64,000 nt of DNA, taken from contig CAUYUJ010018641.1 in the NCBI GenBank assembly GCA_963575745.1, positions 1 through 64,000 of the forward strand. The letters are read 5' to 3'. Shown here in pieces: positions 13,336 through 62,857 of this stretch (its first letter is position 1; every line of letters begins with the position of its first letter). The DNA is from Prorocentrum cordatum. Lineage: Eukaryota; Sar; Dinophyceae; Prorocentrales; Prorocentraceae. The notes under the pieces are model-generated. The model had not been told where the DNA came from and did not search any database. It saw only the letters and a list, made by a program, of their open reading frames with translations. Both the position numbers and the translations under genes were made by a program.

Positions 13336-13745
13336 CCGCACATTCTACAGAACTCATTGTTATCTATATCCATTCGAAACTTATCTCTTACCGGTCGCTA
13401 TCAGGGGAGGCTTTGATGGCGGGGTTGACCAGCGAGGATCAGGATGTGGTTTCTGGCTTCAGATCGGCTTAATCAATACTCAGTGCGATCCCAGTGAGAT
13501 TGGCATCGCTTCCGCGAGAACCGTGGGTCCCTTCCCTGCTGGGCATGAGTTTGCTGTTTCTAGTGCCGTGCCCCTCGTTTGGAGGGATGTGGCCGAGGCC
13601 GCGTGGCTCCTTGAAGGAGCTACAGTCACAGAATGTGAATTGTCGGCAGCCGAAGCGCTGCTCAGCGTGCCCGTGTGCTACTGCGGGACCTGTCCTCGCC
13701 CAGCTGCACTCAGCTGGGAACGCGAGTCCAAACAAACAAACAAAC
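13336..13745 (+). mobile_element. 5'-truncated LINE fragment inserted in a module hairpin
   Basis: The insert interrupts the family-A hairpin: the left side stops at cccccgg and the right side resumes with aaggttgacggtttaccg. It carries the C-terminal half of an ORF3-type RNase H and ends in an A-rich tail (caaacaaacaaacaaacg). The part of the hairpin between the two edges (cggtaac) is missing, so the 5' junction was deleted and no target duplication remains. Confidence 0.75.
13370..13695 (+). pseudogene. RNase H-like ORF3, C-terminal fragment
   Basis: The frame contains G-G-F-D-G-G (Asp codon 13415-13417), the D10-like motif that opens an RNase H fold, then E-C-E-L-S-A-A-E (Glu codon 13637-13639), the E48-like helix. 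Between them is a longer insert than in the LINE-C copy at 45606. There is no recognisable stop matching the other copies, and the frame runs on into flanking family-A sequence, so this is a decayed fragment. In intact ORF3 copies these motifs form the end of the protein; the D70- and D134-like motifs that precede them are absent here through 5' truncation. Confidence 0.65.
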
Positions 13746-20678: not shown

Positions 20679-22154
20679 GTGCTGCACTGCTGTCTATTGT
20701 CTGTCTGCATATATTACCTCTTATTGAACGAGTGGCATTTTCTTGTGTGCGGGATTGTTGTTGACACAACGTCGTGCGACAGCCCTGAGGCCCAGCTGGC
20801 CTTGAGGAGAGAGATCGGTCTCGAACATTGGGGTGAAAGTACTGAGGAGTGGTTTCGTCGCCAAAAAAATCTGGACATACCCACTGAGGATTACCAGGAC
20901 GATAGGGTCAACTTCGATTACCTTGAGGAATACCAACCGTGGGATCAGAAAGACTTGCAGGCACTGGAGGCAGCATCAAACAAGCGTCAACGTGAGGACG
21001 ATAAGAATTGTCTAGATAAGTACGGATTGGACGGTAACATTCTTGAGAATATGACTCATGTTGCTGCAGCGGCGGATGCCGAAATGACGGGGGAGAGTGA
21101 GATTCGATCTAAACGTGCACGTGGCCCAGAGATAGAGGAGGAGAGGAAATTGATGTTAGCGCAGGAGAAGGATCCTTTCAAACAGATGATGATGAAGCAT
21201 GTTTGGAAAACGGAGGATGCACATGAGGATCTCATCCATGTTGTTCAATCGACGAAGACGGACATTAAAAGAGTTGAGGACACACTTAAGTTGCATGCAA
21301 AGCGCATGGAGAAATCAGATGCACGGACAGATATTCTGGAGAAACAGGTCAAGCAAATTTTGGCTGGATCTCCTGCCGCATCGGTTTCGACTAGTGTGGG
21401 CCCTGGCGGGTCCTCTGGTGGAGGTGTAGGTTCGGCCCCCCACGTGCAACAAGGGCGATCGAGCCAGTTTACGCCAACTTATCTTGAACTCAAAGGGTGG
21501 GTTACAGATTGGCCAAACCAAGTAAATCGGGGAAATCAAATGATACCCTGGGCGGATGCGTCACAGCTTATATCGAATATGATTGGGACACTTCAGGGGG
21601 AGGAAAGGAATGCATATGACAAAGATAAAACTGAACGATTAAACGGAGGAAGATATATGTACGGAAGCGTGAAGGTCGGTTTCAAAGAAGGGACAGCACG
21701 GGACACCCTCTGGATAATAAAGAAATGGATGGATATGGTCTGTAAGGAACCAGCCGATCGTATCGCTCCGCCTCCAGGTTATACATATCCAAATGCCGAT
21801 GTTCTCATCCAAGATGTGGACGCGCCTATCGATCCCAGAAAGATTCGTACGCCTGTAGAGTGTGCACCCTGGAAGCGTGATCATGTGAAAGCGGTTGCTC
21901 GTTTCTGTGGGACTTGGCGAAGTAGGACATCGGCTCATGTTCAAATCGAGATCCGTGGGGAGGTGGGGCCACCGAGGAGTCAGATTTGGACTCAAGCTGT
22001 TCCGAATCTCCGACCCGTCTGCTTTGCGACGTATACGAACACCACAGGGGCTTGGGTTCTTCATGCTGATGCATGGGCTCGTATTCTATCTATCTATCCT
22101 GCGCTGACGGTCCCCATGAATGAGATAGTGCAGGAAGTGAATCGTAGGCAGTGA
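20679..22154 (+). CDS. LINE-A ORF1, putative nucleic-acid-binding protein
   Basis: An open frame of about 490 codons from a non-AUG position; the first in-frame ATG is at 21051. In LINEs, ORF1 protein coats the element RNA. Visible parts: an acidic then basic N-terminus, a likely coiled coil coded at about 21226-21363 (regular Leu/Ile/Val spacing among K, E and D), a Gly/Ser/Val linker, and a C-terminal domain starting with E-L-K-G-W-V-T-D (about 21487). LINE-B2 ORF1 has the same order and the same block. I see no zinc knuckle. The frame ends in TGA at 22152-22154, followed in the same frame by ORF2. Where translation starts is uncertain: the acidic stretch before 21051 looks coding, so a non-AUG start or a trans-spliced upstream start is possible. 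Confidence 0.7.
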   Translation: MLHCCLLSVCIYYLLLNEWHFLVCGIVVDTTSCDSPEAQLALRREIGLEHWGESTEEWFRRQKNLDIPTEDYQDDRVNFDYLEEYQPWDQKDLQALEAASNKRQREDDKNCLDKYGLDGNILENMTHVAAAADAEMTGESEIRSKRARGPEIEEERKLMLAQEKDPFKQMMMKHVWKTEDAHEDLIHVVQSTKTDIKRVEDTLKLHAKRMEKSDARTDILEKQVKQILAGSPAASVSTSVGPGGSSGGGVGSAPHVQQGRSSQFTPTYLELKGWVTDWPNQVNRGNQMIPWADASQLISNMIGTLQGEERNAYDKDKTERLNGGRYMYGSVKVGFKEGTARDTLWIIKKWMDMVCKEPADRIAPPPGYTYPNADVLIQDVDAPIDPRKIRTPVECAPWKRDHVKAVARFCGTWRSRTSAHVQIEIRGEVGPPRSQIWTQAVPNLRPVCFATYTNTTGAWVLHADAWARILSIYPALTVPMNEIVQEVNRRQ

Positions 22155-22178
22155 CGTTTGCGGCGCCTCGTCCGAGGC

Positions 22179-25104
22179 ATGCGTTTGGCGAGCTGGAACC
22201 TGAACAAAGCAGGTGAGGCTCATTTTAAATGTGCTGAGATTCTCCATCATATGAGGGCATGTGGTGGGCTCTTTGCATGTCAGGAAACTCAATACCTTGT
22301 GCATGGTGAATTTGAACGCTTGGGGTGGCGCATCAAAACTAGTTCGTGTAGCAAGGCAGCTCTCATCTTCAACAGATCTTGGGCGGCTGCCGTCCGCATG
22401 TTCTTTACATGTTTCACGAGGTTCGTTGTCGGCGTATTTGGGTCAGAAAAGTCACCACTTATTATTGTGTCAGCGTATTTGCCAGACCCTCATGTGGAGG
22501 ATTGTGTAGAGATAGCTGCGGAGGTCTATGAGCAAATCAGACGTGCTCGCAATGTACTCCGCACTAAGTTTCCTCAGGCCAGCTTTTGTGTTCTGCTCGA
22601 TGCAAATGTGGAGATTCCGCCTGGATGCAAGTTTACGTATAATGGGGAGGAGTATGGGGCTACTGGAGAGGAGGGTACTCGTACGGACAGAAGGTGGGAG
22701 AGAGGAGGAGACGGTACACAGCAGATTGAGAGGAGGAATCGGAGGAGGAGGCTGAAGGAGCTGCTCTTAGAGTTCATGGAATCACATGGACTGAAGGCCG
22801 CCAACACTTTCAATACTAGGAAGCATACCTGGGAGTCGTGGGGGGAGAACAAGTTTCTGACTTCGAAGAGGGTCCTGGATTACCTACTGGTCCCTCATCG
22901 TTGGGAGGTCTCGGATCTGGAGGTGAAGTGGTGTTTCAAGAGGGGTGGTAAGAAGCAGTTCAGTAGATTATCCGATCACGCTATCATCGCGGCGAGTTTC
23001 ACGGACCCTGGGAATGTGATTGTTCGTCGCCCTGACCCCCAGCCTGCTCAGAAGTCTAGGCCGTCCCTGGTCGGATACAAGTGTTCGACTTGGGCTGATG
23101 AGCATCAGGCTCGGCAGCATGTGGATTTGAATCTAGGCGGTGCGGCCTTCGCTCGTTCGAGGTGTCCGTCTGTGACCTGTCCAGAGTGTTTGCAGAGTAC
23201 TATGCTGGAGGCGTACGTGTCGCCTGCGGTGGGCTATTCCACCACGAGTGCGAGAAGACCTAGGGAGCCGCCCAGGCCGGTGCAGCTCACTCGGGCCGAG
23301 GAGGAGGTTCAGATGTGTCCGAAGGAGGAGGTGGAGAGGTTGAGGAGGTTAAAGAATGAGGCCAATCGTCTACGCAGAAGTTATCGACGTGATATGATCA
23401 TGTGCAGATGCCCCCCAACAAAGCGAAAGGTCAGATATACTATCAAACATTTAGTGGTGGATGGGAGGGAGACGGAGGACCGTGAGGAGTGGAAGGAGGA
23501 GCTCGACAAGTTCGTTCGTTTCAAGGTGTCGTCCGAGGAGGTACGCAATTCCACTAACAGTATGATGGAGGGGATCAGGATGAGGGCTGTACATGAGGTA
23601 CGATCCACATCAGTTGTGGGAATTAGTATGGCGCTGCTTCTCAGAGCACGGGCTCGGCTGAAGACCCAGAGGGCTACTGGGCCAGATGGGATACCGTGCG
23701 AGATTCTTAGGAGCTTGCCGTGGTGTGCTCTCAGAGCGATGCAGAAGTTGTTCGATAAAATCATCAAGCTCATGACTCCGTATCCTCAGTCGTGGCGTGA
23801 GATTCTCGTCTCTTTTATGCCCAAAATCCCAGGGATTACTAAGTTAAAAGACGGTCGTTTGCTGTGTATGCAGAAAGCTGTTTCGAGATGGTTCAGTTCC
23901 TGTATTGTTCTCCTGGTTGAGGGCCATATTGAAAGAAACGGAGTGTTTCGTCATATTGGGTTGTATGGTTTCCAGGAACATCGTCGTACACACGAAATCA
24001 CGGCTAGCATCAAACATATAGGTCAACATGCTGCACACTGGGGAAAAGGGAAAACGGCACACTTGGCGAACGCTGATGTCCTCCAGGCGTTCGATCACTG
24101 CACGGTGGCCAATGTCAGGCGCGGGTTGGATCATGCGAGTGTGCCCCTGTACCTACAGTATGCTCTACTTAACCCCTTGTGTGAATGTGTAGGCACTGTC
24201 TATTATGATGGGATTGAGGTTTTGGAGGTAAGGTGGGACAAATGTATTCGGACGGGCGGGCCTGAGGGTCCATTGGCTTTCAATCTTATTGTTGCTGCTA
24301 TGTGGAGGTCCACGATTCGAGAATGGGACGTACTAGGACTAGGTTATCGTATTGAGTTTGCGACTGGCTCGACTAGCTGTGTTTCGATTATTAATCACTT
24401 CCTTTGGGCGGACAACTGTTATGTTCTGGCTCGGAGTCGGGAGGAACTCACGCGCATGTTACACGGTCTATCTACACAGTTACATGATTGATCCTCCGCG
24501 AGATGCGGAAGGGGAAATATTACGCACTGCTGATCTTGTTCTCTCGATGGGGTCGGAGGATTCGGGAGTGTATCGATTTAGAAGAGTGACGGAGATGGAG
24601 GTGCTTGGGGCTCATATTTGTTCTGAACTACATGTGAATGAGCACCCAGATTTGGATGCTAGTATTGGCTCTGCTCGCAGGGCTTTCTGGGGGCAGGCGA
24701 CCTTCTTCCGCTCCACGGCCATCCCGTTGAAAGATAAGTATGAGAGGTATGCACAGAGGGTTCAGAGTATTGTTCTCTACGCGGCGGAAGGATGCACGGT
24801 CGACTCTAGTTCATTGAGTGCCCTTCATATCTTTGAGGGTAAGTGCCTGGCTGTAATGTCTCGTTGTATACGGAGGGAAGGGGAAAGTTTTCAGGAATGG
24901 AATGCGAGGAGGTATGAACGTGCGAGACAAAAATTTCATGATGCACACTATGCGGGTATTGTACAGAAGTTTCTCAGAGTGCACTGGATGTGGGCAATCG
25001 ACATCCATGAATTTGCCAGGAGGCGCTGGAGGCAAACTCGACAAGAGCTTGGAGAGATTCTCGTTTCTCATGCCTGGCGTTTGGCCGACTGTGGGATAGA
25101 ATGA
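22179..25104 (+). pseudogene. LINE-A ORF2, APE-type endonuclease plus reverse transcriptase (one frameshift)
   Basis: ORF2 would nick target DNA and copy element RNA onto the nick. Starting at ATG 22179, the endonuclease motifs appear in order: W-N-L-N, C-Q-E-T (Glu 22284), L-D-A-N (Asp 22599), H-T-W, L-D-Y-L, S-D-H (22971). The RT motifs follow: A-T-G-P-D-G, S-F-M-P-K, D-V-L-Q-A-F-D (motif A, about 24076-24099), G-G-P-E-G-P (motif B, 24255-24272) and W-A-D-N (motif C, 24405-24416). Motif C has Asn where most RTs have the second Asp, and motif B has Glu where Gln is usual. The first frame stops at 24489-24491; the homologous continuation lies in another frame to 25104, while LINE-B2 is continuous there, so one indel is inferred near 24490. 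ORF1 ends in the same frame 24 bases upstream with a single TGA. Confidence 0.85.
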
Positions 25105-25160
25105 GGACAGATTCAAGCGAGGCTCTCAGATGTTGGGGGAAATAGAAGGAGGCCAGCTCA

Positions 25161-26045
25161 ATGAAACGACATCGTGGGGGACAGGAGAGTGTAGGACTTC
25201 GTCCGTGGTACTATTCATTGGAATCGTTTTATGGTTTATCCTGGTGGGAGTTCTTTGCTGGAAGTTTTGAACATTTCATGGATTTCGCTGCACATGTTTG
25301 TACTCGTACTATTTTAAAGTATTTCCAAAAGAAATGCAAAGGCTTGACGTCCTCAGGAGTGCCTGTGTTCTTGAACTTGGATGAGGATGGAGGGGTTCAT
25401 ATTGGTCATGATCGGGAGGATACACCAGCATATAGGGATCGTCTCAGCAAACGTATCGCGTTGTATAACATGCGTTGCACACAGTGGGACCTCGAAACGG
25501 ATGGGATACCACTGGATATCCAGGGGGACTCACTGCTTGTTATTAACTGGCTCTGTGGGAAATGGAAAGTATTAGCTCAGGTATATCAGAAAAGGGTGGA
25601 TACTCTGATTAATAAGTTGGACGAGATGCAGGATACATACTTGGTGAGGCCTCCAGAGGCTGGCCGTGACTTCTTCTCTCATTCTTTTCGGGAATGGAAC
25701 CAGAGAGCTGACTTACTGACCCATCAGGCCCGTCAGGGCCACGTGTACGCCGATTTCATTTACCTCAGCGATTTTGAATCTCAGTGTTATACTCCTTGCC
25801 TCATCAAAACCGGCTTTGATGGGGGCGTTTGTAGCCGCGGAAGTGCCTGTGGTGTGTGGATACAGATAGGTCTGCGAAACAAATATATCTTCTCGCGGAC
25901 CGACATCATTTTCAAGGATGTGTATCTTGCGGCTTGGTGTCTGCCACCAAGCGCCACTGTCACAGATACGAAACTATCAGCGGCGGAGCGCATATGCGAT
26001 GTGCTCCCACAGGTTGTGCAGACCTTCTTTGATCATTCGCAGTGA
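25161..26045 (+). CDS. LINE-A ORF3, RNase H with permuted motif order
   Basis: A 294-codon frame beginning at ATG 25161, 56 bases after ORF2. RNase H would remove element RNA from the RNA-DNA hybrid. Motifs in order: G-D-S-L-L-V-I-N-W (Asp 123, codon 25527; like E. coli D70), R-E-W-N-Q-R-A-D-L-L (Asp 184, codon 25710; like D134), then G-F-D-G-G (Asp 220, codon 25818; like D10), and T-D-T-K-L-S-A-A-E at residues 268-276. Canonical RNase H has the last two first. Spacing within each half (61 and 51 residues) fits the fold. In this copy the catalytic Glu of the last motif is Lys (codon 25971), whereas LINE-B, C and the 13.4-kb copy keep Glu, so the enzyme here is probably inactive. The N-terminal 120 residues match no family I know. 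Confidence 0.75.
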   Translation: MKRHRGGQESVGLRPWYYSLESFYGLSWWEFFAGSFEHFMDFAAHVCTRTILKYFQKKCKGLTSSGVPVFLNLDEDGGVHIGHDREDTPAYRDRLSKRIALYNMRCTQWDLETDGIPLDIQGDSLLVINWLCGKWKVLAQVYQKRVDTLINKLDEMQDTYLVRPPEAGRDFFSHSFREWNQRADLLTHQARQGHVYADFIYLSDFESQCYTPCLIKTGFDGGVCSRGSACGVWIQIGLRNKYIFSRTDIIFKDVYLAAWCLPPSATVTDTKLSAAERICDVLPQVVQTFFDHSQ

Positions 26046-45554: not shown

Positions 45555-45605
45555 GGTATCGCCCTTTGCAGTCTTTGGTGGAAGAGGACGAGGGGGGGGA
45601 CTTCG

Positions 45606-45838
45606 TTCTGCTCCGAGGGGGCTTCGACGGAGGAGTTGATCGTAGGGGTACGGGCTGTGGTTGTTGGCTCGAGGTTGGACTGAAATCCAGATATAGCGAG
45701 CTGTTCACTTACAAAGAAGTGTTCTCAGCTGCCTGGATATTGCAACCAGGAGCGACGGTTACGGACGCCGAACTTTCTGCTGCGGAACGCCTCGTTGGGG
45801 CGCTCCCACAAGCCGTACGGTCACTATGGTGTGATTAG
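45606..45838 (+). pseudogene. LINE-C ORF3 C-terminus, second half of the permuted RNase H
   Basis: The frame reads G-G-F-D-G-G-V-D (Asp codon 45626-45628, D10-like) and ends with T-D-A-E-L-S-A-A-E-R-L (Glu codon 45770-45772, E48-like), with a stop at 45836-45838, about 22 residues after the Glu. This shows that in LINE-C too the D10/E48 half is the very end of the protein. The 5' truncation removes the D70/D134 half. The frame upstream of 45606 is LINE-B sequence and is unrelated. Confidence 0.7.
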
Positions 45839-46325: not shown

Positions 46326-48338
46326 GGACTTCGAGTGGGACGCAAAACTCGTGAAGGAGGAGGAGGACGAGCAGAGGAGTCAGGGCAGGGGCACACTCAG
46401 CCAGATCATCGCAGATGCGGCGGCAAGAGCCGCCAGGTCGCCGCACTTCGTGCACCTACGAGGCCGGAACGTCTCTGGACGCTCGAACGGTTGTTACGGC
46501 GCGCTCTCTGGCCCAGAGAACTTCGATGCCAAAATGAAGCCAGGAGTCTTCGGAGATTGATCAGACCATTACGAAAACAATTTGATGCCGATATGCTCGA
46601 ATACAAACACAAAATTGAACAGCGCAAACTACGTACACAAGCACAGGCACAGAAAGTCAAAAAGATGACGGGGGAGTGGGAACTTACTTACGATGTCGAG
46701 GCCAAACAGGGGGAAATTGGGAGGTACTTGAAAGACAGGGTGGAGGACTATGGGGCTAGAAGGGAGGTGCAGTCTATTCTGGAAGGTCTGGCATCGAAGC
46801 TCAACCAGACCCAGTGCGTGAGCATCCATGCATGACATTTTGCGAGCGAGGGCTCGCCTCAAGAGTGGGGCGGCTGGGCCCGACCAAGTGACACGGGAGA
46901 TGCTGCAGCTCATCCCCTTTGCCAGCCTCAAGACAATCCGACATCATGTCATCCAGATCGCCAATCGTTGTCAACAGGTCCTCTCGGATTGGAAGAGGTT
47001 TCTGGTGACGCTCATCCCGAAGGCGCCGTCCATCCAGGAGCTTTCGGAGACCAGGGCGATCTGCCTCCTGAGCCTGGTCCAGAAGTGGTACAAACATGTA
47101 TTAGTCATTGATGGGGAACAACACCTGGTGAATATCAAACGTTCTCTTAACATGTATGGATTTGTTCAGTTCAGGAAAGTTTCGGAGGTCACGTCGTTTA
47201 CCAAACATCTGTGACAACGCGCTGCACAATGGGGAAAAAGGGGAGAAGCTCTATCTTGCCAGCATCGATGTACTACAGGCTTTTGGCCATGTTACTATCA
47301 AGCTAGCCCTGCAAAGTATGGAGAAGCTTGGTTTTGTCCCCGCTTTGATTTATGCCCTTCTCTGCCCTATGACCGAAAACACGTTTAAAGCCACCTTCGA
47401 AGGGACTCAGACTTTGGACTGGATTGGTTGGGATCGGAGTATCAGGACGTGCGGGGTGGACGGACCATTCACATTCAAAGTGGTGAGTGTGGCCTTGTGG
47501 AACGAAATCGTCGGGACCTGGGCTGGGCGTGATCTGGGATACGTAGTTGAGCCCCCCGTCCCCATGCCCACTAGATCGACGATTTCCCATGCCCTCTGGG
47601 CAGACAACTTGTTGCTATACGCCAGAGACGAACGGCAGCTCAGGACCATGATTACTGAGCTCACCCTCCCCCTTCTCCAGGCTGGCCTCAATTGGAAACC
47701 ATTCTCTCTCAAGCTCATCCCCTTTGGCGTCAATGGCTCGAATGACGTAGTTCTTGATATCCAGATACCCACTCGGGCCCGCACGTATACACTTGAATGC
47801 GTTAACACTTTAGACATCTTGGGTTACAGACTGGACAGGTCTCGGACACAGCATAGTGACTTGCAATTCAACTTGGATCGTGCCCGTGGTGCCTTCTTTG
47901 CTGACATCGAGTGCTACAGAAGCCATCGCATCCCGATTGAGAGACGATTCCAGCGCTTCCGACTCCGTATCCAGAGTAAGCTACTCTTCGCAGTTGAAGG
48001 AATGACGATTGACAACATCACAGCACAGAAGATATTCTCCTGGGAAGGAAGGCTGTTAGCTATCATTGGAGGAAGGAGGAAAAGGCGCGACAGAAGATTG
48101 GACGGTATACCAAAAGAGGAGATTTAAGTATGCACGCGACCAGTTCGCCAACCATGGCTTTCTGTCGGCTGTGACTCTTCGTTCACAAGAACTGGCTCTC
48201 GGCGAAAGATGTCGCTTGCTTTGCCAGGGGCTTTGCGTGTCAGAATATCCCGACAGCTACGCTGCACACGGACAGAGTACATGCATACACACAGCCCTCA
48301 ATGCCAGAACCACAGTACGACGCGGCTATGTTTGGTAG
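46326..48338 (+). pseudogene. LINE-B1 ORF2 remnant, reverse transcriptase in three or more frames
   Basis: This is the linker and RT region homologous to LINE-B2 ORF2, without the endonuclease. It is split between frames at about 46824 (2-bp deletion) and at 47212-47235 (a nonsense TGA plus one extra A). RT motifs seen: A-A-G-P-D-Q, L-I-P-K-A-P, D-V-L-Q-A-F-G (motif A with the second Asp lost), G-V-D-G-P and W-A-D-N (47597-47608). After 48090 a third frame carries a K-R-R-F-K-Y-A-R-D-Q-F block that aligns with LINE-A ORF2 near 24920. Not functional. Confidence 0.8.
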
Positions 48339-48905
48339 CCACGCTCGTTCGCCAATGGACAAACAAACGATGGATTGCCAACGTTCTTCTGCTAAGGTTC
48401 CCATTGTTATTCCGCCAGCTACGCTGCACACGTACAGTCAAGATCATACACATGCCCATTCGTTAGTGCCTGTGCCTCAGTTGGATGGTCAACGTTCTTT
48501 TGAGTCCACGCCCATCGATATTCCGACAGCTACGCTGCACACTCACAGTGAAGATACCACATGTGTACATTCTTTGTTGCCTGTGCCGCAGGTTGATGGC
48601 CGTTCTTTCGACACGCTGCCCAGCTATAGTCAGACAGCTACGCTGCACACTAACAGTGAATATCATGCACACCTTCATTCGTTGTTGCCTGTGCCGCAGG
48701 TTGATGGACGACGTTCTTTCGATAAGATGCCCAGCGGTATTCCGACAGCTACGCTGCGCACTCACAGAGAGGACATTGCGTATATTCCTTTGCCTGAACA
48801 TCAGTCGGGCGCGGCTACGTTTGGTAGCCGCTATCATTCGACGTGGAAAAGACATCATGCGGACTCTTCTGCTCTGTTGCCTTGTTATATTCTGGCAGCT
48901 ACGCT
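48254..48905 (+). repeat. LINE-B1 internal array of CAGCTACGCTG hairpins
   Basis: About six units with the consensus tattccgacagctacgctgc spaced mostly near 110 bp. The core hairpin is CAGC/GCTG. It overlaps the N-terminal half of ORF3 and matches the array in LINE-B2 at 58599-59251. Confidence 0.75.
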
Positions 48906-50591
48906 GCACACACACAGTACACACCTTACGCATTATCATGTTCCTTCTTGTGCTTCGCCTCAGATTGTTTCGCCTGGGCCCCAGAGATGCGCGGCTATGT
49001 TTGGCAGCCGCGAGAGACTGACAGATAACAAAGAAGATTGTCAACGTTCTTCTGGTCGTGTGTCGTCTGCGTCCAGTATAAGAGTTCCTTTGGAGCCGAA
49101 CAAACAGGATGCTCATTGTTCTTCTGGTCGTGTGTCGTCTGCGTCCAGAATAAGAGTTCCTTTGGGCACTGACCGCCGTGAATTGAACGATCCGCTGCAC
49201 GTGGCGCATCTGTTTGAGTGCGCCAGGCTCCTGGAGGAACGGAGTTTGCAGCGCGAATCGCAGGGCGCTGTTAGTCCTGCGGCCGCAGCCCCCCCAGCCG
49301 ATGGTGAGAGCGAACCCGCGCCCGTGGCCAAGAATCGTCGCAGGCAGATCGTGGAGACCCGCCTGGCCGCCAGGGGAGAGAAGAGGAGCATTGGCCCGAG
49401 CCTGACTGCGAGTCAGGAGGAGCTCGCTAAGCGTGTCAGGCAACCTCAGCACCCTTGCGACAAGAGAGATCGGGATGAAATGTGTTCTCCGAGGGGCAGT
49501 CAAAAGAGACGTTGTATTGCTCATGTGAATGACGACCCCATCGCTTCCGCCGGTAGTCCGTCTGCTGCTCCACAGGGGAGTAAGCGACCACGTGGCCCTC
49601 CTTCTTTCAATCATGTGAGTGAGCCGCGTGAGGCACGACCCTCTGGCGCACATGTGAATGCCTTCAAACTCAACGCCTACTCTCAGGCGCGGTTGGGCAT
49701 GATGCATGCGTCAGGTGACTGGTCAGCTCATCGTCGTGTGTTTGTTGCGCGCTCGAGGGACACCCAGGTTGCTCTTCTCGGCTGGCGTGGCGGTACTAAA
49801 TATGTCGGTTGGAGAAAATGGGAAGATGTCTTCATTGCGGATCAAAATGGCAATACGAAGTGGTGGGAGACAATGCAGTTCGGAAAAGAAGATTGGTCGA
49901 TCTTCGTTGAGAAATTACTCAAAAGATTGAACCTGCCTGCCATCCTTGACTATCTGGCCAAACCTAGAGTTACGGTTGCCCGTACTGAGGAGGAAGAGAA
50001 GAAAATTAACGATGATAGGATTGCGCGTCGCATTGCCAATAACTTTGAACATGAGACTGTCTTTGACTACGATTCGGATAAGATGCCATTCGAAATACTG
50101 GGTGACAGCTTGCGTGTTGTCGAATGGATAAGAGGGCTCTGGGGGTGCACAAACATGGGCTATAACAATATCTTGGAGGCGGCGCAAAACACCCTTGATG
50201 CTTGAGAACTGCGTGTGCGGGGGCTGACCCGATCAAACATCTTTATCGGGAGGGTAACAGTTATGCAGATGAACTCACGTGGGCCTGCAGAGCATGCCCA
50301 CACACATCGAAGAGAAACGAGTGTCTTGCCCCATTATATACTTCGAAAGTTTTAGGATTGAGGGGTTACTTCGACGGAGGTACTTCGGATATTGGGGCTG
50401 GGGGTGGCTGGTGGCTGCAGGCTTTTGTAGAACATCAAAATGCTATACAGTGTCGCGTGATTGCCGAGGAGGCGTTTGGCCTCGATAGGGAATCAACCGT
50501 GACGGTCTGTGAGTTAACGGCCGCCTCGAAGCTACTCCACGCAATCTCACACATTGCGTCTGTTATAGATAGCGTCTCACGCGCTCGGTAG
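48301..50591 (+). pseudogene. LINE-B1 ORF3, repeat-rich N-terminus plus permuted RNase H, frameshifted
   Basis: From ATG 48301 the frame runs 634 codons to 50205, then a 17-bp deletion relative to LINE-B2 shifts it; the rest lies in the frame 50202-50591. Order of parts: 36-37 residue repeats rich in His, Ser and Thr (with T-A-T-L-H-T and L-L-P-V-P-Q-V-D-G), a basic disordered stretch, a conserved region with A-L-L-G-W-R-G-G-T-K-Y, then RNase H motifs G-D-S (Asp 50104), S-Y-A-D-E-L (Asp 50268), Y-F-D-G-G (Asp 50373) and C-E-L-T-A-A-S (Glu 50511). The deletion falls between the first and second catalytic motifs. Confidence 0.8.
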
Positions 50592-55641: not shown

Positions 55642-58470
55642 CATGAGTGGATTGCCAGAGTTGGCACATGGAATATCGAGAAAAGAGGTCGACAGCTCTC
55701 CAGAGCTATTCTAGACGCCGCCAACGACAGGGGCATTTTCATGCTTGCGCTCCAGGAGGCCCAGTTTTTCACGGACAGTCGACAGATTTTAGCAGGGGAT
55801 GGGTGGCATATGGAACGTTCCTCCTGCAAGAAAGCAGCCATTTTGTGGAAGGGCCCGTGGAAGGCTCTGCTACGTGACATAGAGCGCGGGCCAAGGTTCG
55901 TCATTGCATGGTTCAGGCCAGCCGCTATTGTTTGCTTGTGTGTGCCATATGCAGATGATAAGGACGAGGAGGTGAGGGAATTCAGTCAAGTTCTGGAGGA
56001 GGTGAAGAGGAGGATCAGAGAGTATCGCAGACGCCACCCAGAGCAGTCAGACATGCTCATCTTGTTTACGGATGCCAACGTTGAGATGGCTCCCAATATT
56101 ATTGCCAAGGGCCGTGCTATCACTGGTATGGGTGTGGAGGAAGAGGTGGGGGTTCTCTTCAGAGGAGGAAGGGAGGGTGTGAGGAAGAATCAACTGGAGG
56201 AGATGAGGTTCTTGTTCACCGAGTTTTGCAGTGCGCATCGAATGCGGCTGGCAAGCACGTTTGGCCCTCGCTGTGCGACTTGGCGCGGCAGGGCAGCACC
56301 GCAAGGTGAGGCGGTGCTCGACTATATAGGCATCAGTGCTTCTATTCAATTCGACTCGGGGACTACTGCTGAGTGGATTCGGGCCCCAGGGAGATCTGCT
56401 ACAATCCAGGAGATCAGCGATCACAAACTAGTTCATCTTGCGGTTGCTGTGGGGAGACGGCGACATTGCAAGAATAGGAAGCGAGCAGCCCTGCATCAAT
56501 GGGAACCCGTTGACCCTGCTGTGGCTGCTGCCAGCTTCGATCGTGCCCTGTCACGGCAGTTGCGCACGCGGTCCTCGATGAATACGGCCCGAGGTTCGCC
56601 CAAGTTTCAATATGCAGGCTCTCGGTATCGCCCTTTGCAGTCTTTGGTGGAAGAGGATGAGGGGGGGGACTTCGAGTGGGGCGCGAAACTCGTGAAGGAG
56701 GAGGAGGGCGAGCAGAGGAGTCAGGGCAGGGGCACGCTCAGCCAGATCATCGCAGATACGGCGGCAAGTATCCCTAGCCGCCAGGTGGCCGCACTTCGTG
56801 CACCTACGAGGCCGGAGCGTCTCTGGACGCTCGAACGGCTGTTACGGCGCGCTCGTTGGCCCAGAGAACTTCGATGCCAGAATGAAGTCAGGAGTCTTCG
56901 GAGATTGATCAGACCATTACGAAAACAGTATGATGCCGATATGCTCGAATACAAACACAAAAGTGAACAGCGCAAACTGCGTACACAAGCACAGGCACTC
57001 AAAGTCAACAAGATGACGGGGGAGTGGGAACTTACTTGCGATGTCGAGGCCAAACAGGTGGAAATTGGGAGGTACTTGAAAGACAGGGTGGAGGACTATG
57101 GGGCTAGAAGGGAGGTGCAGTCTATTCTGGAAGGTCTGGCATCGAAGCTCAACCAGAACCAGTGCGTGAACATCACCATGCATGACATTTTGCGAGCGAG
57201 GGCTCGCCTCAAGAGTGGGGCGGCTGGGCCCGGCCAAGTGACGCGGGAGATGCTGCAGCTCATCCCCTTTGCCAGCCTCATGACAATCCGACACCATTTC
57301 AGCCAGATCGCCAATCGTCGTCAACAGGTCCCCTCGGATTGGAAGAGGTTTCTGGTGACACTCATCCCGAAGGCGCCGTCCATCCAGGAGCTTTGGGAGA
57401 CCAGGGCGATCTGCCTCCTGAGCCTGGTCCAGAAGTGGTACAACCATATATTAGTCATTATAGGGGCACAACACCTGGTGAATATCGAACATTCTCTTAA
57501 CATGTATGGATTTGTTCAGTTCAGGAAAGTTTGGGAGGTCACGTCGTTTACCAAACATCTGTGCCAACACGCTGCACAATGGGGAAAAGGGGAGAAGCTC
57601 TATCTTGCCAGCCTCGATGTACTACAGGCTTTTGACCATGTTACTACCAAGCTAGCCCTGCAAAGTATGGAGAAGCTTGGTTTTGACCCCGCTTTGATTT
57701 ATGCCCTTCTCTGCCCTATGACCGAAAACACGTGTAAAGCCACCCTCGAAGGGACTCAGAATTTGGACTGGATTGGTTGGGATCGGAGTATCAGGACGGG
57801 CGGGGTGGACGGACCATTCATATTCAAAGTGGTGAGTGTGGCCTTGTGGAACGATATCGTCGGGACCTGGGCTGGGCGTGATCTGGGATGCGTAGTTGAG
57901 TCCCCCGTCCCCATGCCCACTAGATCGACGATTTCCCATGCCCTCTGGGCAGACAACTTGTTGCTATACGCCAGAGACGAACGGCAGCTCAGGACCATGA
58001 TTACTGAGCTCACCCTCCCCCTTCTCCAGGCTGGCCTCAATTGGAAACCATCCTCTCTCAAGCTCATCCCCTTTGGCGTCAATGGCTCGAATGACGTAGT
58101 TCTTCATATCCAGATGCCCACTCGGACCCACACGTATACACTTATATGCGTTAACGCTTTAGACATCTTGGGTTACAGACTGGACAGATATTGGACACAG
58201 CATAGTGACTTGCAGTTCAACTTGGATCGTGCCCGTGGTGCCTTCTTTGCTGACATCGAGTGCTACAGAAGCCATAGCATCCCGATTGAGAGACGATTCC
58301 AGCGCTTCCGACTCCGTATCCAGAGTAAGCTACTCTTCGCAGTTGAAGGAATGACGATTGACAACATCACAGCACAGAAGATATTCTCCTGGGAAGGAAA
58401 GCTGTTAGCTATCATTGGAGGGAGGAGGAAAGGCGCGACATTGGACGGTATACCAAAAGAGGAGATTTAA
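55642..58470 (+). CDS. LINE-B2 ORF2, APE-type endonuclease plus reverse transcriptase
   Basis: The frame opens directly after the ORF1 stop and has no ATG until 55741, although endonuclease sequence (T-W-N-I-E-K, about 55666) starts before it, so the first ATG is not the true start. Endonuclease motifs: Q-E-A (Glu 55756), T-D-A-N-V-E, A-T-W, L-D-Y-I, S-D-H. After a charged linker come RT motifs: A-A-G-P-G-Q (the usual Asp is Gly), L-I-P-K-A-P, D-V-L-Q-A-F-D-H, G-G-V-D-G-P and W-A-D-N (57946-57957). The Asn in motif C and the Asp in motif B are shared in kind with LINE-A. The frame ends at 58470, but a conserved C-terminal block (like K-R-R-F-K-Y-A-R-D-Q-F) continues in another frame, so the true end was probably lost by a frameshift near 58435. 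Confidence 0.85.
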   Translation, partial: HEWIARVGTWNIEKRGRQLSRAILDAANDRGIFMLALQEAQFFTDSRQILAGDGWHMERSSCKKAAILWKGPWKALLRDIERGPRFVIAWFRPAAIVCLCVPYADDKDEEVREFSQVLEEVKRRIREYRRRHPEQSDMLILFTDANVEMAPNIIAKGRAITGMGVEEEVGVLFRGGREGVRKNQLEEMRFLFTEFCSAHRMRLASTFGPRCATWRGRAAPQGEAVLDYIGISASIQFDSGTTAEWIRAPGRSATIQEISDHKLVHLAVAVGRRRHCKNRKRAALHQWEPVDPAVAAASFDRALSRQLRTRSSMNTARGSPKFQYAGSRYRPLQSLVEEDEGGDFEWGAKLVKEEEGEQRSQGRGTLSQIIADTAASIPSRQVAALRAPTRPERLWTLERLLRRARWPRELRCQNEVRSLRRLIRPLRKQYDADMLEYKHKSEQRKLRTQAQALKVNKMTGEWELTCDVEAKQVEIGRYLKDRVEDYGARREVQSILEGLASKLNQNQCVNITMHDILRARARLKSGAAGPGQVTREMLQLIPFASLMTIRHHFSQIANRRQQVPSDWKRFLVTLIPKAPSIQELWETRAICLLSLVQKWYNHILVIIGAQHLVNIEHSLNMYGFVQFRKVWEVTSFTKHLCQHAAQWGKGEKLYLASLDVLQAFDHVTTKLALQSMEKLGFDPALIYALLCPMTENTCKATLEGTQNLDWIGWDRSIRTGGVDGPFIFKVVSVALWNDIVGTWAGRDLGCVVESPVPMPTRSTISHALWADNLLLYARDERQLRTMITELTLPLLQAGLNWKPSSLKLIPFGVNGSNDVVLHIQMPTRTHTYTLICVNALDILGYRLDRYWTQHSDLQFNLDRARGAFFADIECYRSHSIPIERRFQRFRLRIQSKLLFAVEGMTIDNITAQKIFSWEGKLLAIIGGRRKGATLDGIPKEEI

Positions 58471-58598
58471 GTATGCACGCGACCAGTTCGCCAACCATGG
58501 CTTTCTGTCGGCTGTGGAACTCTTCGTTCACAAGAACTGGCCCTAGGCGAAAGATGTCGCTTGCTTTGCCAGAGGCTTTGCGTGTCAGAATTTCCTGA

Positions 58599-59251
58599 CA
58601 GCTACGCTGCACACGGACATAGTACATGCATACACACAGCCCTCAATGCCAGAACCACAATACGACGCGGCTATGTTTGGTAGCCACGCTCGTTCGCCAA
58701 TGGACAAACAAAAGATGGATTGCCAACGTTCTTCTGCTAATGTTCCCATTGTTATTCCGACAGCTACGCTGCACACGTACAGTCAAGATCATACACATGC
58801 CCATTCGTTATTGCCTGTGCCTCCGTTGGATGGTCAACGTTCTTTTGAGTCCACGCCCAGCTATATTCCGACAGCTACGCTGCACACTCACAGTGAATAT
58901 ACCACATATGTACATTCTTTGTTGCCTGTGCCGCAGGTTGATGGCCGTTCTTTCGACGCGCTGCCCAGCTATAGTCAGACAGCTACGCTGCACACTAACA
59001 GTGAAGATCATACACACCTTCATTCGTTGTTGCCTGTGCCGCAGGTTGATGGACGACGTTCTTTCGATAAGATGCCCAGCGGTATTCCGACAGCTACGCT
59101 GCACACTCACAGAGAGGACATTGCGTATATTCCTTTGCCTGAACATCCGTCGGGCGCGGCTACGTTTGGTAGCCGCTACCATTCGACGTGGAAAAGACAT
59201 CATGCGGACTCTTCTGCTCTGTTGCCTTGTTATATTCCGGCAGCTACGCTG
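58599..59251 (+). repeat. LINE-B2 internal array of CAGCTACGCTG hairpins
   Basis: The core CAGCTACGCTG occurs at 58599, 58761, 58872, 58980, 59091 and 59241. All intervals are multiples of three (162, 111, 108, 111, 150), so the ORF3 frame is preserved. The longer consensus (ttattccgacagctacgctg) matches units in the 3' untranslated regions of LINE-A and LINE-C. Confidence 0.8.
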
Positions 59252-60953
59252 CACGCACACAGTACACACCTGATGCATTATCATATTGCTTCTTGTGCTT
59301 CGCCTCAGATTGTTTCGCCTGAGCTCCAGAGATGCGCGGCTATGTTTGGTAGCCGCGAGAGACTGACCGATGACAAAGAAGATTGTCAACGTTCTTCTGG
59401 TCGTGTGTCGTCTGCGTCCAGTATAAGGAGTTCCTTTGGAGCCGAACAAACAGGATGCTCATTGTTCTTCTGGTCGCGTGTCGTCTGCGTCCAGAATAAG
59501 AGTTCCTTTGGGCACTGACCGCCGTGAACTGAACGATCCGCTGCAAGTGGCGCATCTGTTTGAGTGCACCAGGCTCCTGGAGGAACGGAGTTTGCAGCGC
59601 GAATCGCAGGGCACTGTTAGTCCTGCGGCCACAGCCCCCCCAGCCGATGGTGAGGGCGAACCCGCGCCCGTGGCCAAGAATCGTCGCAGGCAGATCGTGG
59701 AGACCCGCCTGGCCGCCAGGGGAGAGAAGAGGAGCATTGGCCCGAGCCTCACTGCGAGTCAGGAGGAGCTCGCTAAGGGCGTCAGGCAACCTCAGCACCC
59801 TTGCGACAAGAGAGATCGGGATGAAATGTGTTCTCCGAGGGGCAGTCAAAAGAGACGTTGTATTGCTCATGTGAATGACGACCCCATCGCTTCCGCCGGT
59901 AGTCCGTCTGCTGCTCCACAGGGGAGTAAGCGGCCACGTGGCCCTCCTTCTTTCAATCATGTGAGTGAGCCGCGTGAGGCACGACCCTCTGGCGCACATG
60001 TGAATGCCTTCAAACTCAACGCCTACTCTCAGGCGCGGTTGAGCATGATGCATGCGTCAGGTGACTGGTCAGCTCATCGTCGTGTGTTTGTTGCACGCTC
60101 GAGGGACACCCAGGTTGCTCTTCTCGGCTGGCGTGGCGGTACTAAATATGTCGGTTGGAGAAGATGGGAAGATGTCTTCATTGCGGATCAAAATGGCAAT
60201 ACGAAGTGGTGGGAGACAATGCAGGTCGGGAAAGAAGATTGGTCGATCTTCGTCGAGAAATTACTCAAAAGATTGAACCTGCCTGCCATCCTTGACTATC
60301 TGGCCAAACCTAGAGTTTCGGTTGCCCGTACTGAGGAGGAAGAGAAGAACATTAACGATGATAGGATTGCGCGTCGCATCGCTCATAACTTTGAAAATGA
60401 GACTGTCTTTGGCTACGATTCGGATAAGATACCATTCGAAATGCTGGGTGACAGCCTGTGTGTTGTCCAATGGATAAGAGGGCTCTGGAGGTGCACAAAC
60501 ATGGGCTATAACAATATCTTGGAGGCGGCGCAAAACACCCTTGATGCACTAACGGACACCTGCTTGAGAACTGCGTGTGTTGGGGCTGACCCGATCAAAC
60601 ATCTTTATCGGGAGGGTAACAGTTATGCAGATGAACTCACGTGGGCCTGCAGAGCATGCCCACACACATCGAAGAGAAACGAGTATCTTGCCCCATTATA
60701 TACTTCGAAAGTTTTAGGATTGAGGGGTTACTTCGACGGAGGTACTTCGGATATTGGGGCTGGGGGTGGCTGGTGGGTGCAGGCTTTTGTAGAAAATCAA
60801 AATGCTATACAGTGTCACGTGATTGCCGAGGAGGCGTTTGGCCTCGATAGGGAATCAACCGTGACGGTCTGTGAGTTAACGGCCGCCTCGAAGCTAATCC
60901 ACGCAATCTCACAGATTGCGTCTGTTATAGATAGCGTCTCACGCGCTCGGTAG
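58646..60953 (+). pseudogene. LINE-B2 ORF3, permuted RNase H with all four catalytic residues (one frameshift)
   Basis: Starts at ATG 58646 with His/Ser/Thr-rich repeats of 36-37 residues. One extra G at about 59427 relative to LINE-B1 shifts the frame; the second part (59436-60953) holds a basic disordered stretch, a conserved A-L-L-G-W-R-G-G region and the RNase H. Its motifs are, in order: L-G-D-S-L (Asp codon 60450), R-E-G-N-S-Y-A-D-E-L (Asp 60630), G-Y-F-D-G-G (Asp 60735) and V-C-E-L-T-A-A-S (Glu 60873). Spacings are 60, 35 and 46 residues. The protein stops 26 residues after the Glu, at the end of what would be helix A. Canonical RNase HI has D10, E48, D70, D134. Confidence 0.8.
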
Positions 60954-62321: not shown

Positions 62322-62857
62322 TTTTAGGATTGGGGGGTTTTAGGAGGGTCCCGGCGGTTCCATTATACACTTCGAAAGTTTTAGGATTGAGGGGTTACTT
62401 CGACGGAGGTACTTCGGATATTGGGGCTGGGGGTGGCTGGTGGGTGCAGGCTTTTGTAGAAAATCAAAATGCTATACAGTGTCACGTGATTGCCGAGGAG
62501 GCGTTTGGCCTCGATAGGGAGTCAACCGTGACGGTCTGTGAGTTAACGGCCGCCTCGAAGCTAATTCACGCAATCTCGCAGATTGCGTCTGTTATAGATA
62601 GCGTCTCACACGCTCGGTAGAGCCACTTGCGCCTGGTGGCCGCGGGGAGCACCGCTGCTTGCATGTGCTGGAGGACCCCACCGCAAAGCCCGCAAACCTG
62701 GTTGAACGGCCGCCTCGAAGCTAATTCACGCAATCTCGCAGATTGCGTCTGTTATAGATAGCGTCTCACACGCTCGGTAGAGCCACTTGCGCCTGGTGGC
62801 CGCGGGGAGCACCGCTGCTTGCATGTGCTGGAGGACCCCACCGCAAAGCCCGCAAAA
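62322..62857 (+). mobile_element. Two tandem LINE-B 3' fragments in one hairpin loop
   Basis: The loop word AACCTGGTTG stands before the first fragment (62312-62321), between the two (62695-62704) and after the second (62858-62867). The first fragment (62322-62694) holds the end of ORF3 and the 3' region; the second (62705-62857) repeats its last 150 bp. The start of the first is scrambled: short pieces of ORF3 sequence and of the hairpin's left flank (gagggtcccggcggt, second copy 62346-62360) are interleaved. Confidence 0.8.
62371..62620 (+). pseudogene. LINE-B ORF3 fragment, D10/E48 half of RNase H
   Basis: Nearly identical to the end of LINE-B2 ORF3: Y-F-D-G-G-T-S-D, then V-C-E-L-T-A-A-S-K, ending S-H-A-R and stop at 62618-62620. 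Only the second half of the permuted RNase H is present because of 5' truncation. Confidence 0.75.

Follow-up and report, generated by a model that had tools for sequence, protein, structure and literature searches.

Evidence for a naturally circularly permuted RNase H domain in LINE retrotransposons of the dinoflagellate Prorocentrum cordatum

Background

We present an analysis of the ribonuclease H (RNase H) domain of long interspersed nuclear elements (LINEs) in a stretch of 64,000 nucleotides from the dinoflagellate Prorocentrum cordatum (GenBank assembly GCA_963575745.1, contig CAUYUJ010018641.1, positions 1 to 64,000 of the forward strand), to which we refer as the window. The window holds copies of two kinds of element, LINE-A and LINE-B (the latter in the copies B1 and B2), as well as truncated copies, one of which belongs to a C lineage. 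The C-terminal domain of the second open reading frame (ORF2) of these elements is very probably an RNase H of the RVT_3 or archaea-like type that has been circularly permuted in nature, that is, a domain in which the second half of the canonical fold precedes the first.

Results

The catalytic residues of the LINE-B2 domain, named here after their canonical counterparts, follow one another along the chain in the order D70, D134, D10, E48. They lie in a single frame of 508 residues as Asp342 in the motif GDS (codon at 60450), Asp402 in REGNSYAD (60630), Asp437 in FDGG (60735) and Glu483 in CELTAA (60873), with a His at 60600 and with 25 residues between the Glu and the stop. An earlier note on this DNA had claimed this order, and its four positions are indeed D, D, D and E in one frame; the frame correction that it advised for LINE-B2 is unneeded, the domain itself being uninterrupted. 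An AlphaFold2 model of the domain built from 30 alignment rows has a predicted local distance difference test score (pLDDT) of 92.2 and a predicted template modelling score (pTM) of 0.87, and supersedes an earlier model from 7 rows with pLDDT 71. The predicted order of elements is b4-aB-..-b5-aE-b1-b2-b3-aA (b, strand; a, helix). The canonical linear order b1-b2-b3-aA-b4-aB..b5-aE is not what is found, since b4 to aE (half 1) come first and b1 to aA (half 2) follow, and the domain is therefore described as a permuted variant rather than filed as a canonical member of RNase H1/RVT_3. The old ends were said to be joined by a linker of about 35 residues, which is correct for the spacing from D134 to D10, but the new linker proper has only about 20 residues in the model.

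Half 1 (16 rows) aligns with a set of 54 prokaryotic RNase HI sequences at an hhalign probability of 98.1 and an E-value of 7e-14 (single comparison) over 63 columns, and the alignment pairs it with the C-terminal half of RNase HI. When the family profile is compared with PDB sequences, RNase HI chains make up the top 5 of the 19 listed matches (E 0.0017 to 0.22), and profile positions from 33 or 39 to 109 are paired with the second half of each chain, the match at E 0.0017 covering residues 68-134 of 3u3g. Early swapped and native profiles, made from the first four or three sequences, retrieved no RNase H from PDB at E<=10; the rows that they returned have E-values of 0.3 or more, come from unrelated chains and were taken as chance matches. 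The Pfam model RVT_3 is matched by 9 of 20 family rows at E<=10 with a best E of 8.7e-5, and LINE-B2 scores 14.7 bits with it (cut-off 21.6). For half 2, the comparison with canonical LINE RNase H domains from the same genome gives a probability of 51 and a score of 29.2 over 19 columns, with D10 paired, and the highest score among 100 column shuffles is 17.6. This same-genome set consists of 12 distinct domains from 15 loci, three of which failed a motif filter, and several of the domains are near-identical.

The arrangement of the two halves was examined with a rotation test, in which the columns of the family profile (27 of the 30 rows of alignment A7, with P0016, P0019 and P0022 left out) are rotated in steps of six and each version is aligned to canonical profiles. 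In native order the profile aligns with the same-genome set at a score of 51.5 over 59 columns and covers canonical positions 73-134 only, whereas profiles rotated to start past helix E but ahead of FDGG reach up to 68.3 over 120 columns, cover canonical positions 11-134 of 145 and pair all of D10, E48, D70, H124 and D134 with their counterparts. With the combined set the rotation lifts the score from about 76 to 88 and the number of columns from 61 to 122, the baseline (about 76, 60-61 columns, default gaps) being taken from rotations 24 and 156-204, the neighbours of k=0. Under eased gap settings the score peaks in the same rotation interval, the listed path sometimes covering half 1 only, chiefly in the loosest setting. 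None of 200 shuffles of the half-2 columns reaches the observed score with either set, the best shuffles scoring 60.9 vs 68.1 observed for the same-genome set and 86.5 vs 88.1 for the combined set. As a control, the score of a canonical LINE family is highest, at about 178, for rotations of 0-12, as expected.

The earlier note had named a complete canonical D10/E48 half upstream of GDS as the finding that would speak for a second, partial domain. In the one intact ORF2 of each kind that was scanned nothing of this sort rises above noise, and neither contains a second FDGG. The FDGG site itself ranks first in the LINE-A ORF2 at 17.9 (next 16.8) and second in the LINE-B ORF2 at 15.8, where the top score of 15.9 falls in the endonuclease-like part; the contrast is small in both scans.

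A protein search with the swapped-halves profile at E<=10 returned 46 proteins, namely eight labelled as canonical RNase H (P0046-P0053, with E between 7.8e-6 and 4.5e-4 for seven), protein P0031 of the window itself, and 37 relatives or fragments. The native-order profile (20 rows) returned 25 proteins at E<=1, none with an RNase H label. The contrast between the two is only suggestive of a permutation: the alignments were not the same, nor were the candidate pools, and P0046, the best canonical match, is without the first half. A single-sequence search with residues 200-508 of P0001 gave no match at E<=0.01, and scans of viral contigs found no relative. Fourteen database relatives cover all four positions (fragments being excluded from this census); the permuted order is present in every one, and 13 of them keep all four residues, P0055 having Asn in place of D134. 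The 14 come from ena, jgi, lgn or ncbi sources and include P0054 of P. cordatum; this protein and P0041, also of P. cordatum, are relatives of the family, to which one MMETSP transcript and "Pyramimonas sp." entries contribute fragments. The EukProt entries of that name (P0016, P0021, P0022, P0025, P0027, P0034 and others) are at most 93% identical to LINE-B and may stem from contamination or horizontal transfer.

Conservation of the catalytic positions is high: among 16 aligned rows D70, D10 and the His ten residues before D134 are invariant, E48 and D134 are each kept in 15, and the Asp and Glu of half 2 are invariant in 23 of 23 rows. All 11 LINE-B copies compared, the window's included, keep D70, D10, the His and E48, and ten keep D134 (Ala in L002). 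The median ratio of nonsynonymous to synonymous substitution rates (dN/dS) is 0.27 (range 0.05 to 0.83) over the 55 non-independent pairs of these copies, without a control region; they represent 11 of 12 LINE-B loci, L004 being left out for its stop. LINE-A and LINE-B frames share 27% identity over 294 residues (E 2e-21), so that their common motif order is more than chance. In a tree of half 1, built from 16 permuted, 12 LINE and every second of the 54 prokaryotic sequences (before a length filter), all 16 permuted sequences group in one clade (support 0.997) that is separate from the prokaryotic sequences and from the canonical LINE sequences, in line with one origin before the A/B split. 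The C-lineage relatives P0057 and P0058 each span part of the domain; P0057, a close relative of the truncated C-lineage copy of the window, adds the D134 part in front and thus shows the order D134, D10, E48. The single clade and these two relatives support the suggestion that the change is ancestral to the A, B and probably C lineages.

Copies of the elements were scored across a genome of 4.13 Gb in 21,875 contigs that contains the window; the published P. cordatum assembly is given as 4.15 Gb (PMC10666404). An open frame of 1654-1658 residues is listed for 18 of the 85 scored LINE-B matches, and one of 1317 residues for about 30 of the 131 scored LINE-A matches (both counted by eye). The 1654-residue ORF2 of the LINE-B locus L009 comprises an endonuclease-like N-terminus, a reverse transcriptase (RVT_1, 35.1 bits vs a cut-off of 29.6), a long repetitive linker and the terminal RNase H; the 1317-residue ORF2 of the LINE-A locus L087 has the same domain order without the long linker, and its reverse transcriptase scores 26.8 bits with RVT_1, below the cut-off (E 5e-6). 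Reverse transcriptase and RNase H are thus in one ORF in both kinds, and the label of an ORF3, under which the domain was first described, does not apply: in intact copies the domain is the C-terminal domain of the single ORF2, and only because the window copies are frameshifted does the RNase H part resemble a separate ORF. At the N-terminus of ORF2 the APE-like motifs WN, DANVE and SDH were read by eye, and no Pfam endonuclease matched at E<=0.1. An assembly artefact is ruled out by the 85 LINE-B and 131 LINE-A matches scored across the genome.

Other properties of the elements were observed along with the domain. The linker between reverse transcriptase and RNase H in LINE-B (48175-50205, 58547-59518 and the L009 ORF2) consists of a repetitive stretch of units resembling ATLHT..HSLLPVPQ and is absent from LINE-A. 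The catalytic motif of the reverse transcriptase, usually of the form xADD, is WADN in the ORF2 of LINE-A and LINE-B (L087, L009) and WSDN in other LINEs (the L089-L103 relatives). ORF1 and ORF2 share one frame and are divided by a single TGA followed by C in LINE-A (window 22152-22154) and in LINE-B (L009 1422-1424), a layout common to both despite the approximately 27% identity of their ORF2s. In LINE-B (L009) there is no Met in the first 55 codons past this stop. The single TGA in the same frame and the lack of an early Met in LINE-B suggest that ORF2 may be expressed via stop readthrough or reinitiation.

The remaining copies in the window (Table 1) largely agree with LINE-B2. LINE-B1 has D, D, D and E at 50104, 50268, 50373 and 50511, as claimed, in a domain split by a frameshift near 50200. 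In LINE-A the three Asp at 25527, 25710 and 25818 are in place, but codon 25971, claimed to be Glu, encodes Lys (TDTKLSAAE). Because all 19 other LINE-A copies examined of the 131 scored have Glu at this position, its loss seems peculiar to the window copy; many of the copies examined are identical, with 7 distinct proteins among the 20. Three truncated copies, at 13415, 45626 and about 62400, carry the FDGG/ELxAA half only, the Asp codon of the last being 62402. The copy at 45608 is preceded in frame (about 45557-45604) by YRPLQSLVEEDEGGDF, a stretch also present in the LINE-B2 ORF2, and for this reason looks chimeric. The 3' end of LINE-B is repeated in part just downstream of B2, at 62360-62617 and 62706-62777.

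Table 1. Features of the permuted RNase H domain and of related LINE copies in the window
Feature	Coordinates	Strand	Basis
Open frame, end of LINE-B2 linker and RNase H domain, 508 residues	59427..60953	+	translation
LINE-B2 permuted RNase H domain, 208 residues modelled	60327..60950	+	translation, AlphaFold2 model, rotation test
Half 1, counterpart of RNase H b4 to aE (residues 35-107 of the model)	60429..60647	+	hhalign, PDB RNase HI residues 68-134
New linker between old C- and N-termini, ~20 residues	60648..60707	+	model element borders
Half 2, counterpart of b1-b2-b3-aA (residues 128-207 of the model)	60708..60947	+	model, profile alignments, invariant Asp/Glu
D70 equivalent (GDS)	60450..60452	+	motif reading, alignment
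H124 equivalent, His ten residues ahead of D134	60600..60602	+	16/16 rows
D134 equivalent (REGNSYAD)	60630..60632	+	motif reading, alignment
D10 equivalent (FDGG)	60735..60737	+	motif reading, rotated alignment
E48 equivalent (CELTAA)	60873..60875	+	motif reading, rotated alignment
LINE-B2 ORF2, endonuclease-like region plus reverse transcriptase, in a different frame from the RNase H region of this copy	55642..58470	+	Pfam RVT_1 33.2 bits, E 5.4e-8
LINE-B1 permuted RNase H domain, frameshift near 50200	50029..50588	+	translation
LINE-A permuted RNase H domain, Lys at E48 position (25971)	25416..26042	+	translation
LINE-A ORF2 of the window, spread over three frames (22155-24491, 24343-25104, 25146-26045)	22155..26045	+	uninterrupted equivalent of 1317 residues in L087
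Truncated C-lineage copy, half 2 only	13385..13687	+	translation; close relative P0057
Truncated copy, half 2 only	45608..45829	+	translation
Truncated LINE-B copy, half 2 only	62360..62617	+	translation

Discussion

The rotation test, the predicted order of elements and the 14 spanning relatives support a permuted RNase H with the break between helix A and strand 4, as the earlier note had proposed. The chain would start at strand 4 with D70, pass through strand 5 and helix E with the His and D134, cross the short new linker and then form strands 1-3 and helix A with D10 and E48. The five residues would come together in the usual two-metal active site, and the enzyme, judging from what is known of the family, may clear the RNA template once target-primed reverse transcription is done. 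The permutation would have a single origin, perhaps in a tandem duplication of the domain that was followed by loss of the outer halves; no duplication intermediate was seen in the two ORF2s examined, which have neither a second FDGG nor an N-terminal half above noise. The permuted domain appears to be old and still maintained. We regard it as likely that the permutation is natural, ancient and of single origin, that the domain is catalytically intact, and that it has become fixed in the pol of diverse dinoflagellate (possibly other protist) LINEs, where it is still under selection in intact elements.

Several results weigh against this interpretation, most of them concerning half 2, which is weak by sequence. 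On its own it has no RNase H match in Pfam or PDB; with the prokaryotic RNase HI set hhalign gives a probability of 5 and aligns FDGG only; and with the whole prokaryotic profile the observed score is reached by 11 of 200 shuffles under strict gaps (2 and 0 of 200 under looser gaps), in an aligned part that holds D10 but not E48. Among the sequence results the chief unfavourable one is that rotation brings no gain against prokaryotic RNase HI alone, whether the profile has 16 or 27 rows, so that the expectation of a swapped profile scoring as one full domain, borne out by the same-genome LINE and combined sets, fails for the prokaryotic set alone. The lack of Pfam and PDB matches and the hhalign probability of 5 are what one would cite for a very unlikely alternative, in which half 1 is left over from an RNase H that lost its N-terminal half and half 2 belongs to an unrelated beta-beta-beta-alpha domain with a convergent FDGG/ELxAA likeness. 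Such an origin is difficult to reconcile with the score of half 2 against the RNase H of LINEs in the same genome, above all of its 100 shuffles and with D10 paired, with the joined alignment, which pairs E48 too at a score that no shuffle reaches, with the invariance of the Asp and Glu in every row, and with the co-occurrence of the halves in permuted order in each of the spanning relatives.

Truncated genomic copies with half 2 alone could also be taken to mean that halves complement each other between molecules in a swapped dimer, so that the chain is not one permuted domain. This we hold to be highly improbable, as the single chain is modelled with confidence as one domain by the pTM, the halves are linked by about 20 residues, and the truncated copies may be read as ordinary 5'-truncated LINE insertions. 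It is likewise unlikely that the permuted fold is kept but catalytically dead and serves nucleic-acid binding: a residue is lost in a few copies, but the five catalytic positions are kept across families about 30% identical, and the median dN/dS speaks in the same direction within the limits stated above.

A naturally permuted RNase H thus remains our preferred interpretation, and it can be compared with several known systems. Archaea-like RNase H (aRNH; Pfam PF13456, RVT_3) is carried by plant Ta11 L1 and by oomycete L1 and Utopia retrotransposons, and the stem "permut" is absent from the main text of the study on these elements (PMC5348765). The dinoflagellate family resembles aRNH in the motifs GDS, H..RE.N..AD and FDG, in being borne by LINEs, and in that its PDB matches include the Sulfolobus tokodaii and LC11 enzymes. 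It differs in that strand 4 to helix E precede strand 1 to helix A, whereas the aRNH domains of the Ta11 L1/Utopia study are said to be canonical in order, which fits the alignment legend. LINEs of the I group and their relatives have endonuclease, reverse transcriptase and RNase H in ORF2. The elements described here likewise have one ORF2 with an endonuclease-like N-terminus, a reverse transcriptase and a C-terminal RNase H; however, the RNase H is permuted and LINE-B adds the long repetitive linker. Circular permutants of E. coli RNase HI have reportedly been engineered as laboratory constructs, which would be proof in principle that new chain ends are compatible with the fold, in contrast to a natural LINE domain. 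No natural permuted RNase H in a retrotransposon was found in the accessible open-licence literature, in a search that was not exhaustive.

The same genome also contains LINEs with a canonical RNase H. The genome has 80 RVT_3 matches over the cut-off, of which 15 loci were looked at and their motifs assigned by eye. In L104 (2-2491, - strand) and L105 (2481-5501, + strand), and also in L089, L090, L092, L093, L095, L098 and L100-L103, a canonical-order RVT_3 RNase H lies between a stretch resembling motif 1 of the reverse transcriptase (e.g. SDGVVGEML) and the remaining reverse transcriptase, apparently as an insertion in the fingers of that enzyme. The L104 and L105 domains share the RVT_3 type and the catalytic residues with the permuted family, but they are canonical in order and lie before or inside the reverse transcriptase instead of at the C-terminus.

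Conclusions

With standard Pfam models the permuted domain is below the cut-off or unmatched in the copies tested, and such LINEs are consequently likely to be annotated as lacking an RNase H that they have. The RNase H fold is a classic subject of folding studies, and a natural permutant, if true, would provide a test by evolution of where the chain can be broken. Other LINEs in this genome have a canonical RNase H at a different place in pol, and the two kinds together make it possible to compare, in a natural setting, how the order and position of the domain bear on retrotransposition.
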